64,000 nucleotides of DNA, taken from the NCBI RefSeq assembly GCF_009900715.1, contig NZ_JAAAJC010000001.1:485216-549215 (forward strand). The letters are read 5' to 3'. Below the pieces are notes generated by a model. The model was not told where the DNA came from, did not search any database, and saw only the letters and a program-made list of their open reading frames with translations. Below are positions 7,397-63,902 of the stretch, piece by piece; the first letter of the stretch is position 1, and each line of letters begins with the position of its first letter. Position numbers and translations under genes: made by a program. This DNA comes from Halococcus salsus. Its GTDB lineage: Archaea > Halobacteriota > Halobacteria > Halobacteriales > Halococcaceae.

Positions 7397-9130
7397 CTAC
7401 AGCACGGTGCCGTGTTTCTTGTCCGGCAGCGACTTCTCGACGTCCTCGTAGAACGCGAACCGGGCGGCGAGCTCGTCGCGGAGCTCGCTCGGCGGGACGA
7501 TCTCGTCGATCACCGTCTCGCTCGCCATCCGGTGGACGTCGATGTCCTCGCGGTAGGCCTCGCGGAGCTCGGCCTCGCGTTCGGCGCGTTCCTCGTCGTC
7601 CTCGATGTCGTCGAGCCGGTTGCGGTAGACCGCGTTGATCGCCGCCTCGGGCCCCATGATCGCGATCTCGCCGGAGGGGAGGCCGAGGGTCGATTCGGGG
7701 TCGTAGGCCGGTCCCGACATGGCGTAGATCCCCGCACCGTAGGCCTTCCTGACGACCACACATTGTTTTGGGACCGTCGCCGACGAGGTGGCGTAGATCA
7801 TCTTCTTGCCCTCTTCGAGGATCCCCTCCTTCTCGACCCCCGACCCCGCCATGAACCCCGGCGTGTCACAGAGGTAGAGGAGTGGAATATTGTAGGCGTC
7901 GCACTTCCAGACGAACTCGGCGGCCTTCTTGGCCGAGTCGGGGAAGATCGCGCCCGCGCGGTGGGCGGGCTGGTTCGCCACGACCCCCACCGGTCGGCCG
8001 TCGATACGGCAGAAGGCGGTGACGATCTCGGGGCCGAACTCGGCACCGAGTTCGAGGGTCGAGCCCTGGTCCGCGACGCGCTCGATCACGTCGTGCATGT
8101 CGTAGCCCCGGTTCGGCCGTTCGGGCACCACCGAGTCGATGCCGGCCGGCGAGCGTGCGGGCGGGCGAGGGTCGGCGCGTGGCGGCTGCTCGTCCGAGTT
8201 GTCCGGGAGGTAGGTGACGAGCTGGGCGACCAGCTCGCGGGCGTGTTCTTCGTCGCGGGCCACCAGATCCGCACTGCCCGATTCGGCCGCGTGGACCTGT
8301 GCCCCGCCGAGATCTTGGAGGTCGATTTTCTCGCCGGTGACCATCTCGACCATCCGGGGTGAGGCGATCGCCATCGCGGACATCCCCTCGACCATCACCG
8401 TGAAGTCAGCGAAGACGGGGGTGTAGGCCGCGCCCGCGATGCACGGCCCGTAGAGCACGCAGATCTGGGGCACGCGCCCCGAAAGCATCGAGTGGTTGTA
8501 GTAGTACTTCCCGATGCCCTCGCGGTTGGCGAAGAAGCCGGTCTGCTGGTCGATCCGGCCACCCGAGGAGTCCATCAGGTAGAGCACCGGTTTGCCGGTC
8601 TTCAGTGCGCGCTGTTGCATCCGGAGGAACTTCTCGACGCCCTTGCCGGCCATGCTGCCGGCTTTGACGGTGAAATCGTTCGCCATCACGTGACAGTCCC
8701 GGCCCTCGAACTCCGCGGCCCCGGTCAGGAGCCCGTCGGCGGGCAACTGGTCGTCGGCGTCGAACTCGGCGAAGCGGCCGTCCTCGAAGGTCAGGCCACC
8801 GTCGAACCACAGGTCGAGCCGGTCGCGGACGAAGAGCTTTCCCTGCTCGTCGAGTCGGTCCTTGTACTTCTCGGGGCCACCACGCTCGATCTCGGCGATC
8901 TCCTCGCGGAGGCGTTTCTCGCGTTCGGTCGGGCCGAGGTCTCGCTCCGGGGCCGGCTCGTCCGTTCCGCTGGATGCGTCGGCCGCCGATTCCGGGGGGT
9001 CAGCGGTCGCCGCGGGCGTTCCGTCGTCGCCGACGTAGACGTCGACCGACTCGCCAACGTGTTCGGCGAGCGCGCTCCCGATGACGCGCGCTTCCTCGTC
9101 GCTCGCCCCGCCGCCGATACGGATGTCCAT
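7397..9130 (-). CDS. Acyl-CoA (propionyl/methylmalonyl) carboxylase beta chain with N-terminal extension
   Basis: 577 residues. The bulk is a biotin-dependent carboxyltransferase with two crotonase-like halves. It shows RIDQQTGFFANREGIG, GPCIAGAAYTP (first oxyanion hole) and VANQPAHRAGAIF plus YGAGIYAMSGP in the second half. It would transfer carboxyl from biotin to acyl-CoA. The first ~45 residues (IRIGGGASDEEARV...) are extra compared with plain beta chains and resemble the small third subunit (epsilon/PccX) of some actinobacterial and haloarchaeal carboxylases. They are joined by an Ala/Ser/Pro-rich acidic linker. No biotin-carboxylase partner lies in the window. The start at 9130 was preferred over 9145 because MDIRI opens the extension. 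Substrate is inferred only. Confidence 0.9.
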   Translation of the reverse strand: MDIRIGGGASDEEARVIGSALAEHVGESVDVYVGDDGTPAATADPPESAADASSGTDEPAPERDLGPTEREKRLREEIAEIERGGPEKYKDRLDEQGKLFVRDRLDLWFDGGLTFEDGRFAEFDADDQLPADGLLTGAAEFEGRDCHVMANDFTVKAGSMAGKGVEKFLRMQQRALKTGKPVLYLMDSSGGRIDQQTGFFANREGIGKYYYNHSMLSGRVPQICVLYGPCIAGAAYTPVFADFTVMVEGMSAMAIASPRMVEMVTGEKIDLQDLGGAQVHAAESGSADLVARDEEHARELVAQLVTYLPDNSDEQPPRADPRPPARSPAGIDSVVPERPNRGYDMHDVIERVADQGSTLELGAEFGPEIVTAFCRIDGRPVGVVANQPAHRAGAIFPDSAKKAAEFVWKCDAYNIPLLYLCDTPGFMAGSGVEKEGILEEGKKMIYATSSATVPKQCVVVRKAYGAGIYAMSGPAYDPESTLGLPSGEIAIMGPEAAINAVYRNRLDDIEDDEERAEREAELREAYREDIDVHRMASETVIDEIVPPSELRDELAARFAFYEDVEKSLPDKKHGTVL

Positions 9131-59379: not shown

Positions 59380-60297
59380 CTACGTCGAGGGTGTGTTCAG
59401 GTCGTTGCCGTCGGCGTCGTGGACCGCGTTGTGGGCGGTGACGCGCGGGCCGCGGTCGGTGTGCTCGACGGTGGCCGCGACCCCGAAGACGTCGTGGAGG
59501 AGGTCCTCGGTGATGACCTCATCGGGGGGACCGCGGGCGTAGATCGAGCCGTCGTCGAGCGCGAGCACGTGGTCGGCGTACCGGGCGGCCTGGTCGATGT
59601 CGTGGAGCACGAGCACGATCGTGACCTCGGAGTCGGCCTTCAAGGTCTCGATGATCTCCATGACTTCGAGCTGGTGGTGGAGGTCGAGGAAGGTCGTCGG
59701 CTCGTCGAGCAGGAGGACGTCGGTGTCCTGGGCGAGCACCATCGCGATCCACGCGAGCTGTTTCTGGCCGCCGGAGAGCCCGCCGACCTCGCGGTCCCTG
59801 AGGTGGTCGACGCCCGCGAGGCTGAGCGCGTCCGCGACGGCACACTCGTCCTCGTCGGTCAGCGAATCGAAGAAGCCACGGTGGGGGTACCGACCGTGCA
59901 GCACGAGGTCCTCGACCGTGATGCTCGACGGCGAGACGTTCTCCTGTGAGAGCAACCCGAGCTTCCGTGCGAGCTCCTTGGTGTCGAGGGTCTGTATCGC
60001 CTGTCCGTCGAGCCTGACGACGCCGTCGTCGGGCGTGAGCTGGTTCGAGAGCCCCCGGAGGAGCGTGCTCTTGCCCGAGCCGTTCGGGCCGACCAGCGCC
60101 GTCACGCAGCCCTGGGGGATCGAGACCGACTCGCCGTCGATGACCGGTTCGCCCTCGGGGTAGCCGAGCACGACCTCCTCGCATTCGAGCGTGGTGTCCC
60201 GCTCGGCGGGAACGCCGGGTTCGTCCGCGGGTCCCGACGACTCGCTGCGTTCGACGAGCGTACCGCCGTCCGTCCGGAGCGGGTCGTCGTCGGTCAT
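59380..60297 (-). CDS. Iron/siderophore-type ABC transporter ATP-binding protein
   Basis: 305 residues. Walker A GPNGSGKS, signature GGLSGGQKQLAWIAMVLAQ, Walker B VLLLDEPTTFLDLHHQ and switch VLVLHDIDQAARYADH are the hallmarks of FepC/FhuC/BtuD-type ATPases (the DLHHQ is typical). About 38 acidic residues precede the domain. It is read separately from the permease upstream (137-base gap) behind its own iron-box promoter, so ATPase supply may be controlled independently. Iron-siderophore, haem or cobalamin import fits. Confidence 0.93.
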   Translation of the reverse strand: MTDDDPLRTDGGTLVERSESSGPADEPGVPAERDTTLECEEVVLGYPEGEPVIDGESVSIPQGCVTALVGPNGSGKSTLLRGLSNQLTPDDGVVRLDGQAIQTLDTKELARKLGLLSQENVSPSSITVEDLVLHGRYPHRGFFDSLTDEDECAVADALSLAGVDHLRDREVGGLSGGQKQLAWIAMVLAQDTDVLLLDEPTTFLDLHHQLEVMEIIETLKADSEVTIVLVLHDIDQAARYADHVLALDDGSIYARGPPDEVITEDLLHDVFGVAATVEHTDRGPRVTAHNAVHDADGNDLNTPST

Positions 60298-60382
60298 CGG
60301 GGCTCGCCCTCCGTCGGTCGCAGTCGTGTGTCGAACGCCGACCACGCGTTCGTCCACCACGAAGCGCTCGCGTCCATATCTG

Positions 60383-60398
60383 TTTAGGCACTCCTAAA
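60383..60398. promoter_or_regulatory. Iron box 1 (DtxR/SirR-type operator) over the ATPase promoter
   Basis: tttaggcactcctaaa is a perfect 6-4-6 palindrome. On the minus strand it lies just downstream of the TATA-like cgtttatgc (60400-60408), where transcription should start for the ABC ATPase. A metal-loaded repressor bound here would block initiation. Confidence 0.7.
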
Positions 60399-60408
60399 AC
60401 GCATAAAC
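60399..60408 (-). promoter_or_regulatory. TATA box of the ABC ATPase gene
   Basis: acgtttatgcg-type element (minus strand) directly upstream of iron box 1. With transcription beginning about 25 bases on, the leader would be about 80 bases. Confidence 0.5.
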
Positions 60409-60434
60409 GTTTTCGTTGGGGCGAGATCCTCCCC

Positions 60435-61586
60435 TCAGACCTCGCCGATCGAGCCCTGCTTTCGCATCAGGTAGAGGAAGTAGGGCCCGCCGATCAGCCC
60501 GGTAACGATCCCGACGGGGATCTGGACGGGGTTGAGCGCGAGGCGCGCGCCGACGTCGGCGGCGACCATCAGTGCCGGGCCGGCGAAGACACAACCGACC
60601 ATGAGGCGCTTGTAGTCGCTGCCGACGAGGTTACGGACGACGTGAGGAACGATGAGGCCCACGAAGCTCACGATCCCGGCGACCGAGATGCTCGCCGCCG
60701 CCGCCAGGATCGCGATGCCGGAGAGCGCGAAGCGGACCCGCTCGACCGACATCCCGAGCGACTTCGCGGTGCGCTCACCCAGTAGTAAGACGTTGAGCTG
60801 GCGTGCGCCCGCGAGCGCGAGCACCGTCGCGAGGATCGTCCACGGCAGCGCGATCCGGACCTGTTCCCAGTCGGTGCCCGTGAGCGAGCCCGTGGTCCAG
60901 GAGATCGCCTGCTGGACGATCCCGAGGTCGTCGGCGAAGAAGAAGAGGCCGGTCTGGAGCGACTGGAACACCGTGCTGACGATCACGCCCGCGAGGACCA
61001 GCCGAACCGGCGAGGTGCCGTTCTGCCAGGCGATCGCGTAGACGATCAGGAAGGCGACCGCGCCACCGAGCGACGCCGTCACCGGCAACAGCGCCGTGAG
61101 GCCAGAGAAGACGACGAGCGTGAGGAGGATCGCGAGCCCAGCCCCCGAGGAGACCCCGAGGATGAACGGGCTCGCGAGCTCGTTGCGGGTCACGGCCTGG
61201 AAGATCGCCCCCGAGATCGCGAGGTTCGTGCCCACGAACGCCGCGACGAGGACGCGCGGCAGGCGGATGTTCCAGACGATCAGCGCACGCTGGGGGAGGT
61301 CGACGGCCGCCGTCGAGAGACCGAGCGCCGAGAAGAGGCCGTTCGCGAGGCCTTCACCGAGCAGGAAGGTCGCGATCACCTGCGGGTGCGTCCAGACGAC
61401 CGGGTCGAACACCGCCCCCCAGGCTTGGCCGATGGTCATCGAGTACGACCCGAAGCTCACCTGGACCAGCCCCGCGACCGCCACGATCGCGACGCTCGCG
61501 AGGATCAGCGAGACCAGCGAGCCGTCGACCCACTCGAACCAGCCTTCGTCCTCGCCGGCGGTCGTCGTCGAACCGCTCCCGGCCAT
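60435..61586 (-). CDS. FecCD/BtuC-type ABC transporter permease
   Basis: 383 residues, about nine to ten helices. The typical SGAIFQAVTRNELASPFILG and SVAGIVSFVGLIVPHVVRNL loops are present (the latter contacts the ATPase), and GPALMVAADVGARL is near the C-terminus, all features of siderophore, haem and vitamin B12 permeases. It works as a dimer in the membrane and is 11 bases after the substrate-binding gene, forming a two-gene operon with it. Confidence 0.93.
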   Translation of the reverse strand: MAGSGSTTTAGEDEGWFEWVDGSLVSLILASVAIVAVAGLVQVSFGSYSMTIGQAWGAVFDPVVWTHPQVIATFLLGEGLANGLFSALGLSTAAVDLPQRALIVWNIRLPRVLVAAFVGTNLAISGAIFQAVTRNELASPFILGVSSGAGLAILLTLVVFSGLTALLPVTASLGGAVAFLIVYAIAWQNGTSPVRLVLAGVIVSTVFQSLQTGLFFFADDLGIVQQAISWTTGSLTGTDWEQVRIALPWTILATVLALAGARQLNVLLLGERTAKSLGMSVERVRFALSGIAILAAAASISVAGIVSFVGLIVPHVVRNLVGSDYKRLMVGCVFAGPALMVAADVGARLALNPVQIPVGIVTGLIGGPYFLYLMRKQGSIGEV

Positions 61587-61597
61587 CTACGCTCCCC

Positions 61598-62809
61598 TCA
61601 CGACGACCCCGTGACGATGTCGGCCACGCGTTGCCGGTCGAACAGCTGGTCCGAGGCCCCGTAGACCTGCCGGGCGGCGCGCTCGGTCAGCACGAGGTTC
61701 GTGATCGGGCCCTGATAGAGCGGGCCGCCGCGGTAGACGTCGCCGTTCTCGACCGCGGTCAGCGCGCTCGCGGTGTCGTTGCTTTCGAGATACGACACCA
61801 CGGTGTTCTGGAACTGCTTTCGGGTCTTGTCCTCGTGGCCCCGAAGCAGTAGGACGTCGGGGTCGACCTCCAGCAGCGTCTCGAAGTCGACCTCGCTCCG
61901 GTCGGCGTGGAAGTCCCGAACGGACGTGTCGGCGAACGCGTCCCGGACTTCGAGGTCGCGCCACTGTTTGAAGCTCGTCCCGGGACTGATGAGGTACGGG
62001 GAGAACGTATCCGGTTGGTCGCTTCCCGCCCACATGATCGCCACGGCGGGTTTCTCGCCCGAGGGGACGACCTCGCTCACGTTCGACTGGAAGTCGTCGT
62101 GGAGACCGGCGAAGGCCTCGTAGCGTTCGGTCTCCTGGAACACCTGTGAGAGCTTCTCGAACGCCTCGTAGAGCGAGAGGTACGGGTAGTCCTCGTGCCA
62201 GTCGTAGCCCCGCGAGAAGATGCTGTTGCCGAAGAAGGGCGCTATCTCCGTCTCGATCTCCTTGATGTCGGTCTGGTTCCAGCCCTTGTACCGGTTCAGG
62301 AGGAAGTTGGGGTCGATGACGTGGACGTCGCCGTCGAGCTCGTAGAACAGCTCCTTGCTCACCCCGTCGCTGTAGAGGCTCTGCATCCCGCTCTTGTCAA
62401 CCGAGACGCCGGGGATCTCGTCGTAGTACTGGGTGTGGTACCGTTCGGTGAGCCAGACCGCCTTCGGGGGCTGCTTGCCGAGCGCGACACCCATGTCGGC
62501 CCAGCTTCCGTTGTTGGCGACCCACGTCTCGGGAACGCTGTCGAAGCTTACCGTACCCACGGGCGGCATCGTGGTGCTGTAGGACCCGCCCGATGCGGTT
62601 CCCGTTCCGTCGGTGGCCTCCGAGCCCGTTCCCTCGGCCGCGGTGGATCCGGACTCGGTCGCGGCTCCCGCGCCGGTCGTTCCGTCGCTCGCGGCGGTCC
62701 CGTCGCCGGCACCAGCGGTGCTCTCGTTGGTTCCGCCGTCGCTCCCGGTACAGCCGGCGAGCAGCCCGCCGGCGACCGCCGTGGTTGCGAGGAATCGTCG
62801 TCGTCGCAT
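61598..62809 (-). CDS. ABC transporter substrate-binding lipoprotein (iron type)
   Basis: 403 residues. MRRRRFLATTAVAGGLLAGC has both a twin-arginine signal and a lipobox with Cys20, so it is a Tat lipoprotein. A Thr/Gly/Ser/Ala-rich linker (about 21-75) follows. The binding domain shows KAVWLTERYHTQYYDEIPGV, VHVIDPNFLLNRY and VDPDVLLLRGHEDKTRKQF, like FepB/FecB-family binding proteins (PF01497). It captures an iron chelate outside the membrane and hands it to the permease. It is first in the operon, with two iron boxes upstream. Confidence 0.9.
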   Translation of the reverse strand: MRRRRFLATTAVAGGLLAGCTGSDGGTNESTAGAGDGTAASDGTTGAGAATESGSTAAEGTGSEATDGTGTASGGSYSTTMPPVGTVSFDSVPETWVANNGSWADMGVALGKQPPKAVWLTERYHTQYYDEIPGVSVDKSGMQSLYSDGVSKELFYELDGDVHVIDPNFLLNRYKGWNQTDIKEIETEIAPFFGNSIFSRGYDWHEDYPYLSLYEAFEKLSQVFQETERYEAFAGLHDDFQSNVSEVVPSGEKPAVAIMWAGSDQPDTFSPYLISPGTSFKQWRDLEVRDAFADTSVRDFHADRSEVDFETLLEVDPDVLLLRGHEDKTRKQFQNTVVSYLESNDTASALTAVENGDVYRGGPLYQGPITNLVLTERAARQVYGASDQLFDRQRVADIVTGSS

Positions 62810-62813
62810 ACGA

Positions 62814-62829
62814 GTTAGGCCCGCCGAAA
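62814..62829. promoter_or_regulatory. Iron box 2 upstream of the binding-protein gene
   Basis: gttaggcccgccgaaa, an imperfect 6-4-6 palindrome of the same type, lies between the TATA-like agctaaag (62832-62839, minus strand) and the ATG at 62809, over the expected start of transcription. Confidence 0.6.
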
Positions 62830-62847: not shown

Positions 62848-62863
62848 TTTCGGTCGGCCTAAA
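62848..62863. promoter_or_regulatory. Iron box 3, upstream copy
   Basis: tttcggtcggcctaaa, an imperfect copy of the palindrome, has its centre 34 bases from iron box 2. It sits just upstream of the TATA box, where the transcription factor B element would be. Confidence 0.55.
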
Positions 62864-63021
62864 TCGAAACCCGCTCCGCCCGTGACTTTTCGATCGAGAT
62901 CGATTGCAACGATCACTCATCCGCTTCGCTCCGCCGGGCGATCCCCCGTGCGATGCCATCGCGTGTTCCGATATGGAAACCGGATTTTCGGGATCCCAAA
63001 GAAAACTTCTCGCGAGGGGAA

Positions 63022-63030
63022 TGTTTAAGT
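63022..63030 (+). promoter_or_regulatory. TATA box for dpsA
   Basis: tgtttaagt lies 25-33 bases before the ATG at 63055. No iron box was found nearby. Confidence 0.6.
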
Positions 63031-63054: not shown

Positions 63055-63612
63055 ATGAGTCTCCAAGAATCCGACTCCCGTCTCCAGCAGGAGTTCGGCA
63101 CGGTCGACGAATCGCCGGCGACCCGCATCGAGGCCGAGCGCGCCGAACAGGTCATCGACGCGCTCAACGCCGACCTCGCGGCGTCGTACGTGCTCTATCA
63201 CCAGCTCAAGAAGCACCACTGGAACGTCGAGGGTGCCGAGTTCCTCGAACTCCACCGCTTCTTCGAGGAGGCCTACGAGGACGTCGAGGAGCACGCCGAC
63301 GCGATCGCCGAACGCGCCCAGGCGCTCGGTGGTGTCCCCGTCGCGGGTCCCGTCAACCTCGACGAGCGGAGCTACGTCGAGTTCGAGGGTGAGGACGTCT
63401 ACGACGTCCGGACCTCGGTCGCCAACGACATGGTGATGTTCGCCGACATCGTCGAGCGGTTCCGCGACCACATCGAACTCGCCAACAACCTCGGCGACTA
63501 CACCTCCGAGGAGGTCCTGCGCCACGCGATCACGGACTACGAGGAGTACGCCCACCACCTGGAGCACTACCTCGAAGACGACACCCTCGTGCTCGAAGAA
63601 GCGACGCACTGA
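63055..63612 (+). CDS. dpsA: Dps-family ferritin-like protein DpsA
   Basis: 185 residues. It forms a dodecamer that oxidises and stores iron and shields DNA. The four-helix core has the ferroxidase ligands in HHWNVEGAEFLELHRFFEEA (His, Glu) and EEHADAIAERAQALGG. The N-terminal ~20 acidic residues and the C-terminal extension are as in halobacterial DpsA. The start 63055 was chosen; ATG at 63052 is equally possible. It lies between iron importer and iron-boxed small gene, giving an iron-homeostasis locus. Confidence 0.95.
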   Translation: MSLQESDSRLQQEFGTVDESPATRIEAERAEQVIDALNADLAASYVLYHQLKKHHWNVEGAEFLELHRFFEEAYEDVEEHADAIAERAQALGGVPVAGPVNLDERSYVEFEGEDVYDVRTSVANDMVMFADIVERFRDHIELANNLGDYTSEEVLRHAITDYEEYAHHLEHYLEDDTLVLEEATH

Positions 63613-63673: not shown

Positions 63674-63853
63674 TCAGCGTTCGAGGTCGACGGCGAGGTC
63701 CGTCGCGATCCACCCGTCGGTGTTCCCCGCCTCGACGAAGACGCGACGGCCGGGGCGGGTGGTGTGCACCGAGACGCCGTGGTCGAGCCGCGATCCGCTG
63801 TGGTCGTCGGTCGTGGTCGTGTCGGGGCCCAATCGGTGGGAGGGAACGGCCAT
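63674..63853 (-). CDS. Small iron-boxed protein of unknown function
   Basis: 59 residues. The first 25 are polar and rich in Thr/Asp (GPDTTTTDDHSGSRLDHG). The rest, VHTTRPGRRVFVEAGNTDGW followed by IATDLAVDLER, has the look of a compact beta-rich domain and resembles a small haloarchaeal family (DUF7331-like, from memory). There is no signal, helix or Cys. The start lies eight bases after a perfect iron box that overlaps the expected transcription start. Expression is therefore likely to follow iron status, but a function is not known. Confidence 0.75.
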   Translation of the reverse strand: MAVPSHRLGPDTTTTDDHSGSRLDHGVSVHTTRPGRRVFVEAGNTDGWIATDLAVDLER

Positions 63854-63860
63854 TACCCGA

Positions 63861-63876
63861 GTTAGGCAACCCTAAA
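63861..63876. promoter_or_regulatory. Iron box 4 over the small gene's start site
   Basis: gttaggcaaccctaaa, a near-perfect 6-4-6 palindrome between the TATA box and the ATG at 63853. Confidence 0.7.
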
Positions 63877-63886
63877 GTCATAAGCA
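63877..63886 (-). promoter_or_regulatory. TATA box of the small iron-boxed gene
   Basis: On the minus strand tgcttatgac lies 24-33 bases before the ATG at 63853, between iron boxes 4 and 5. Confidence 0.6.
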
Positions 63887-63902
63887 TTTTGGTCGGCCTA
63901 AT
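63887..63902. promoter_or_regulatory. Iron box 5, upstream copy
   Basis: ttttggtcggcctaat, a weaker copy whose core (tcggcctaa) is the same as in iron box 3. Its centre is 26 bases from that of iron box 4, on the far side of the TATA box. Confidence 0.5.

Follow-up and report, generated by a model that had tools for sequence, protein, structure and literature searches.

What does a protein of 59 residues do when its gene carries the iron boxes of an importer and converges on the gene of a Dps-type ferritin? The question is raised by the window, the whole 64,000-nucleotide stretch of Halococcus salsus DNA that was analysed, in which the small-protein gene (SP) and its promoter showed the following features:

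63674..63853, minus strand: SP gene, ATG to stop, 59 codons for a cysteine-free protein of 59 aa.
63862-63875, minus strand: iron box 2, TTAGGGTTGCCTAA, a perfect palindrome that begins 22 nt and ends 8 nt ahead of the ATG.
63876-63887, minus strand: TATA region, ATGCTTATGACT with CTTATGA, exactly between both boxes.
63888-63901, minus strand: iron box 1, TTAGGCCGACCAAA, 26 bp from box 2.

We searched the Halobacteriales genomes that were at least 90% complete and found SP in 219 of 245. Among 394 genomes sampled from the phylum, all 75 matching ones lay inside the order and SP was found in none outside it. The proteins were 45-72 aa long across Halobacteriales, with a start position that was almost constant relative to the box, and consisted of an acidic, variable N-terminal tail followed by a conserved C-terminal block, VxxHxTxPGRxVFxExxNxDGWIATDLTVDLER. 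Residues W48 and I49 were invariant in the relatives, and N44, D46, D52, E41, V38 and F39 were near-invariant. None of the 453 usable pairs reached a dN/dS of 1; the median was 0.25, with 0.14 in the C-terminal block versus 0.44 in the N-terminal part. By this measure SP is a genuine protein under strong purifying selection. The AlphaFold model of SP was poor (pLDDT 61), with a beta hairpin at residues 27-41 and a disordered, acidic N-terminus; it is consistent with a binding peptide but is uninformative and gives no mechanism. Searching NCBIfam with SP and PDB with the profile of the SP family gave no match. Cysteines were absent from 66 of the 120 relatives and numbered one to three in the other 54. 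A CxxC metal site was rejected as a general feature of SP, as it was present in only 6 of 120 relatives.

SP scored 17.5 bits (E = 0.006) against DUF7331 (Pfam PF24018), and the SP copies of family relatives likewise scored below the curated cut-off of 27 bits, so we set SP outside this family. The profile-profile comparison with hhalign nevertheless gave E = 8.5e-8 over 37 columns, in line with homology of the C-terminal block, and DUF7331 was matched by 50 of 51 SP relatives at E <= 1 and by 65 of 77 at E <= 0.01. On these scores SP is a distant, divergent relative of DUF7331 and not a member of it. DUF7331 comprises haloarchaeal small proteins whose function is given as unknown in Pfam; it shares with SP a C-terminal block of about 35 residues with the core V-[FY]-[DE]-x-x-N-x-x-[AG]-W-[IL], but SP has its own signature, VFxExxNxDGWIATD, and its iron boxes. 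No iron box was found at the start of those canonical DUF7331 genes that were inspected. The literature searched contained no paper naming DUF7331 or HVO_0537, and it is possible that an SP orthologue was listed earlier as a hypothetical target in studies of the haloarchaeal iron regulon. At four loci (L064 in G002, at 7412-7576; L068 in G008; L072 in G003; L065 in G017) a canonical DUF7331 gene lay divergent from dpsA, on its opposite side, and in several genomes of the window genome's family two members of the superfamily, SP and a canonical DUF7331 gene, flanked dpsA.

Read 5' to 3' on the minus strand, the SP promoter consisted of TTAGGCCGACCAAA, ATGCTTATGACT, TTAGGGTTGCCTAA, eight bases and the ATG of SP. 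A box ending 8 nt before the ATG is to be expected where a haloarchaeal mRNA has little or no leader, so the SP mRNA is probably of this kind, and box 2 would lie near the presumed transcription start. An iron box close to the ATG was present in all 120 distinct SP loci, whether dpsA was nearby or not. Box 2 was found in 109 of these loci (perfect in 106, starting at -22 or -23 in 90) and box 1 in 84, with a spacing of 26 bp in 71 of the 73 loci scored for both boxes; the other ORFs of the same loci showed a comparable box in 44 of 1116 cases. Loci L084, L095, L102, L189-L191, L194 and L195 carried only the upstream box and TATA element, with no dpsA in the available stretch. Two conserved boxes flanking the TATA element are placed to block the promoter, as in a DtxR-type iron-box regulon, and this arrangement would allow metal-dependent binding of DtxR and derepression of SP at low iron. 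Selection and operators together predict that SP is translated and responds to iron.

The original prediction had placed a 59-residue reading frame at 63674..63853 behind an operator/TATA/operator arrangement, controlled like an importer and encoding a possible small modulator of iron use. We confirmed the frame, on the minus strand, as well as the arrangement, and found gene, protein and operators conserved across the order, which supports the proposed control and role. Loss of the frame and a lack of translation had been named as grounds for abandoning the idea; the deep conservation of the SP frame removes the first, and since both frame and operators are so deeply conserved, the second is unlikely to apply. 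The accompanying statement that the protein has no metal-binding cysteines was correct for the SP of the window but does not extend to its relatives.

Downstream of SP lay dpsA and, beyond it, an importer of the same regulon:

62849..62862, minus strand: distal iron box of the binding-protein gene, with a spacing of 34 bp as against 26 bp at SP.
62815..62828, minus strand: proximal iron box of the binding-protein gene.
60384..60397, minus strand: iron box, perfect, ahead of the ATPase gene of the importer.
59380..62809, minus strand: iron-siderophore ABC importer (ATPase, FecCD permease, binding protein; Pfam Peripla_BP_2, FecCD and ABC_tran).

The whole genome contained 12 perfect TTAGGNNNNCCTAA sites, compared with 2 for the reversed control pattern. 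These sites preceded the importer ATPase, SP, a diaminobutyrate-type aminotransferase, six iron-siderophore binding proteins, a DtxR-family regulator, a small cupin and an uncharacterised ORF; the products were read from translations, with Pfam confirming three in the window, namely the ABC ATPase, the permease and the binding protein. The aminotransferase behind its perfect box belongs to siderophore synthesis, as read from its translation. Three DtxR-type genes of the genome scored above the cut-off, one of them with a perfect box in front. The boxes resemble those of the haloarchaeal DtxR-family iron regulon (Idr1, Idr2, SirR and TroR; PMC11349517, PMC6978704) as palindromic TTAGG-N4-CCTAA boxes located at importers, siderophore synthesis genes and a DtxR-type gene. 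SP differs in its constant spacing of 26 bp, which was found at SP only, whereas the five other paired sites of this genome were spaced 34 to 36 bp. Boxes paired at 36 bp stood ahead of an uncharacterised ORF of about 144 aa, a member of the regulon (G000:C2:5739-5752, L199). Two of the perfect boxes separated a siderophore binding-protein gene from a divergently oriented one, a catalase-peroxidase gene (katG) at G000:C2:291623-291636 (L201) and a PCNA-like (sliding clamp) gene at G000:C5:171576-171589 (L206).

The ferritin gene between SP and the importer faced SP and had an iron box of its own:

63055..63612, plus strand: dpsA, Dps-type ferritin of 185 aa; converges on SP, with the stop codons 61 bp apart.
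63024-63029, plus strand: dpsA TATA box TTTAAG.
62987-63000, plus strand: iron box of dpsA in degenerate form, TTCGGGATCCCAAA, lying upstream of the TATA box just listed.

The product matched Pfam Ferritin with E = 8.6e-33, and its closest solved structure was Halobacterium DpsA (1moj). In dpsA promoters a related box, TTTNGGNNNNCCNAAA, stood upstream of the TATA box, some 70 nt ahead of the start codon. A perfect match to TTNGGNNNNCCNAA was present in 44 of 98 dpsA promoters, mostly at about -70, where shuffled sequences predict 0.15. A box upstream of the TATA box fits the position of an activator site. Judged from the positions of their sites, SP and dpsA look reciprocally controlled, a reading that draws also on two published observations. 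DpsA of Halobacterium goes down under iron deficiency, according to a review (PMC3600143), and DtxR of Corynebacterium glutamicum represses uptake while activating dps and ftn (PMC1382209). The proposed control would be like the dual control in Corynebacterium glutamicum, where one regulator acts and upstream sites stand at the activated genes; it would be unlike it in that the known case is bacterial and that the available portion of that report describes no small protein paired with dps.

We determined the position of dpsA at the SP loci by tblastn. Of the 120 loci, 95 had a convergent dpsA downstream of SP at a distance of at most 5 kb, and 80 at most 500 bp away; the median gap was 155 bp. 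It had another orientation in 4 loci, and in 21 it was not found in the available stretch, which reached about 5 kb at most and fell short of that in five of them. In other families a protein of about 100 aa, acidic (c21), or a small membrane protein (c35) recurred in the interval between SP and dpsA; the loci with recurrent intervening genes were L098, L099, L108, L157 and L180, and L116, L118, L163, L168, L181 and L183. The upstream neighbour of SP, just beyond the window edge, was a MATE transporter by Pfam; it adjoined SP in 8 loci only, all of this genus, and was rejected as a partner. A role of SP as an import adaptor was likewise rejected, as the importer is not conserved as a neighbour. 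The original prediction had offered importer, ferritin or iron-dependent enzyme as possible targets; the ferritin, DpsA, gained support as a conserved neighbour that is lost together with SP, while the importer did not.

Presence and absence of the two genes were strongly associated. Among the 245 genomes, 218 had both SP and dpsA, 1 had SP only, 14 had dpsA only and 12 had neither (Fisher P = 1.6e-12; six of the SP-less genomes were identified by subtraction from the dpsA list). The genome with SP only (G027) showed a weak SP match and lacked dpsA. The genomes with neither gene spanned five families, and several losses look independent because sister genomes in genera such as g4, g26, g28, g31, g39 and g160 retain both genes. 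At least two dpsA genes were found in 19 of the 38 genomes with at least two SP copies, compared with 41 of the 181 others (P = 0.001), and in G048 and G359, with two SP copies each, every copy stood in its own convergent SP-dpsA pair. Adjacency alone can produce the joint loss of SP and dpsA. We give a probability of about 0.55 to the reading that SP is an iron-starvation protein acting on or with the ferritin DpsA; the link between the two comes from synteny, co-loss and the residue correlation described below, and a complex of SP with DpsA and a release of iron are predictions.

SP may instead be a general iron-sparing regulator that binds iron enzymes, the importer or DtxR, its proximity to dpsA reflecting shared iron homeostasis. 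The iron box is retained at SP where dpsA is distant, and SP is short and acidic with an unstructured N-terminus, like many adaptors. Against this, SP and dpsA are lost jointly while the remaining iron regulon stays: 11 of the 12 genomes with neither gene had 6 to 17 iron boxes, where the control pattern gave 0 to 2, and only G445 had 1, so loss of SP together with the entire iron regulon was rejected. The importer, moreover, is not conserved beside SP. We regard this explanation as doubtful but still a serious contender.

SP and dpsA converge in 95 of 120 loci, at gaps that are often short (down to -4 to 20 nt), which raises the alternative that the SP transcript acts as RNA and silences dpsA by antisense or convergent-transcription interference, the protein being secondary. 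A terminator-like site was sought between SP and dpsA in the window and none was found, which suits this alternative. An antisense role is possible at short gaps, but it leaves unexplained the strong purifying selection on the SP protein and the cases in which the genes are not adjacent. Gaps reach several kb, sometimes with intervening ORFs, and the operators are kept in the 25 of 120 loci where dpsA is otherwise oriented or absent from the available stretch. A primary role as RNA is therefore improbable.

We compared the DpsA of genomes with and without SP. The window DpsA showed the Dps pattern H-x11-H, D, E, by which we take H55, H67, D82 and E86 to be its ferroxidase residues. All four were intact in 104 of the 106 DpsA from genomes with SP and in 3 of the 14 from genomes lacking it. 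The 14 genomes with dpsA only belonged to one family; their DpsA were 45-55% identical to the window DpsA (52% in G055), and no iron box was found in their dpsA promoters. H67 and E86 were each lost in 11 of these 14 DpsA, R137 changed too, and E59, E174 and D175 were lost in all 14. Alignment to 1moj equated the latter three with E56, E171 and D172 of Halobacterium DpsA, which are described as forming an acidic pore of the Dps type with iron observed inside it (PMC6675082). SP thus appears to accompany a DpsA that is iron-regulated and competent in ferroxidase and pore, a correlation that comes from one clade and may represent one or few evolutionary events. The Dps of family f17 (L231, L241-L253), without ferroxidase residues, pore residues and iron box, are possibly non-ferritin Dps.

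This distribution also bears on the idea that SP serves DpsA in oxidative protection, for example by preventing the DpsA left in starved cells from binding DNA or aggregating. DNA protection is within the Dps repertoire, and dpsA of Haloferax responds to oxidative stress at the RNA level (PMC12482152). However, SP follows the DpsA that has ferroxidase residues, pore residues and an iron box, and not dps generally, which makes this idea very improbable. That the ORF is untranslated and its boxes serve some other transcript, as its very short length might suggest, is scarcely credible in view of dN/dS values below 1 in every usable pair, a length of 45-72 aa and a start position that throughout Halobacteriales hardly shifts with respect to the box.

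Under the preferred reading, in which SP acts on or with DpsA, a metal-loaded DtxR-type regulator would occupy both TATA-bracketing boxes when iron is plentiful and switch SP off, and a site of this kind ahead of the TATA box of dpsA would favour dpsA expression. When iron is exhausted, SP would be on and dpsA off, so that only previously made DpsA remains. SP would then engage this earlier DpsA, and the stored iron would be used or managed. The step on DpsA could be the opening of the acidic Dps-type pore, a loosening of the 12-mer or its marking for turnover, or a stop to further loading. Physical contact between SP and DpsA, the exact step and repression by iron-loaded DtxR are predicted elements of this scheme. 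A more specific version, in which SP is a cysteine-free release or gating factor that docks at the acidic pore (E59/E174/D175) and lets these archaea draw iron from DpsA, is tentative and, as it stands, rather unlikely.

To our knowledge, how iron is retrieved from Dps-type ferritins is largely open, and a well-studied partner, Bfd, is available for Bfr only. An SP found across the order and apparently induced by low iron would make iron release from Dps testable genetically in haloarchaea, and its role would give a function to one branch of the DUF7331 superfamily. The partner of bacterioferritin, a haem-containing 24-mer, is Bfd, a [2Fe-2S] ferredoxin with four cysteines. Loss of bfd locks iron inside BfrB (PMC7760384). 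By analogy, SP would resemble Bfd as a small protein with a ferritin as its target through which stored iron is used, and would also be made at low iron. SP differs in showing no detectable homology to Bfd and in having a Dps 12-mer as its proposed partner. The four [2Fe-2S] cysteines were absent, as SP here has none and its relatives at most three, and it is unlikely that SP carries an Fe-S cluster. If the pore-docking version is true, SP would mobilise ferritin iron by a mechanism that has no relation to Bfd, and it might be the first partner dedicated to releasing iron from Dps.
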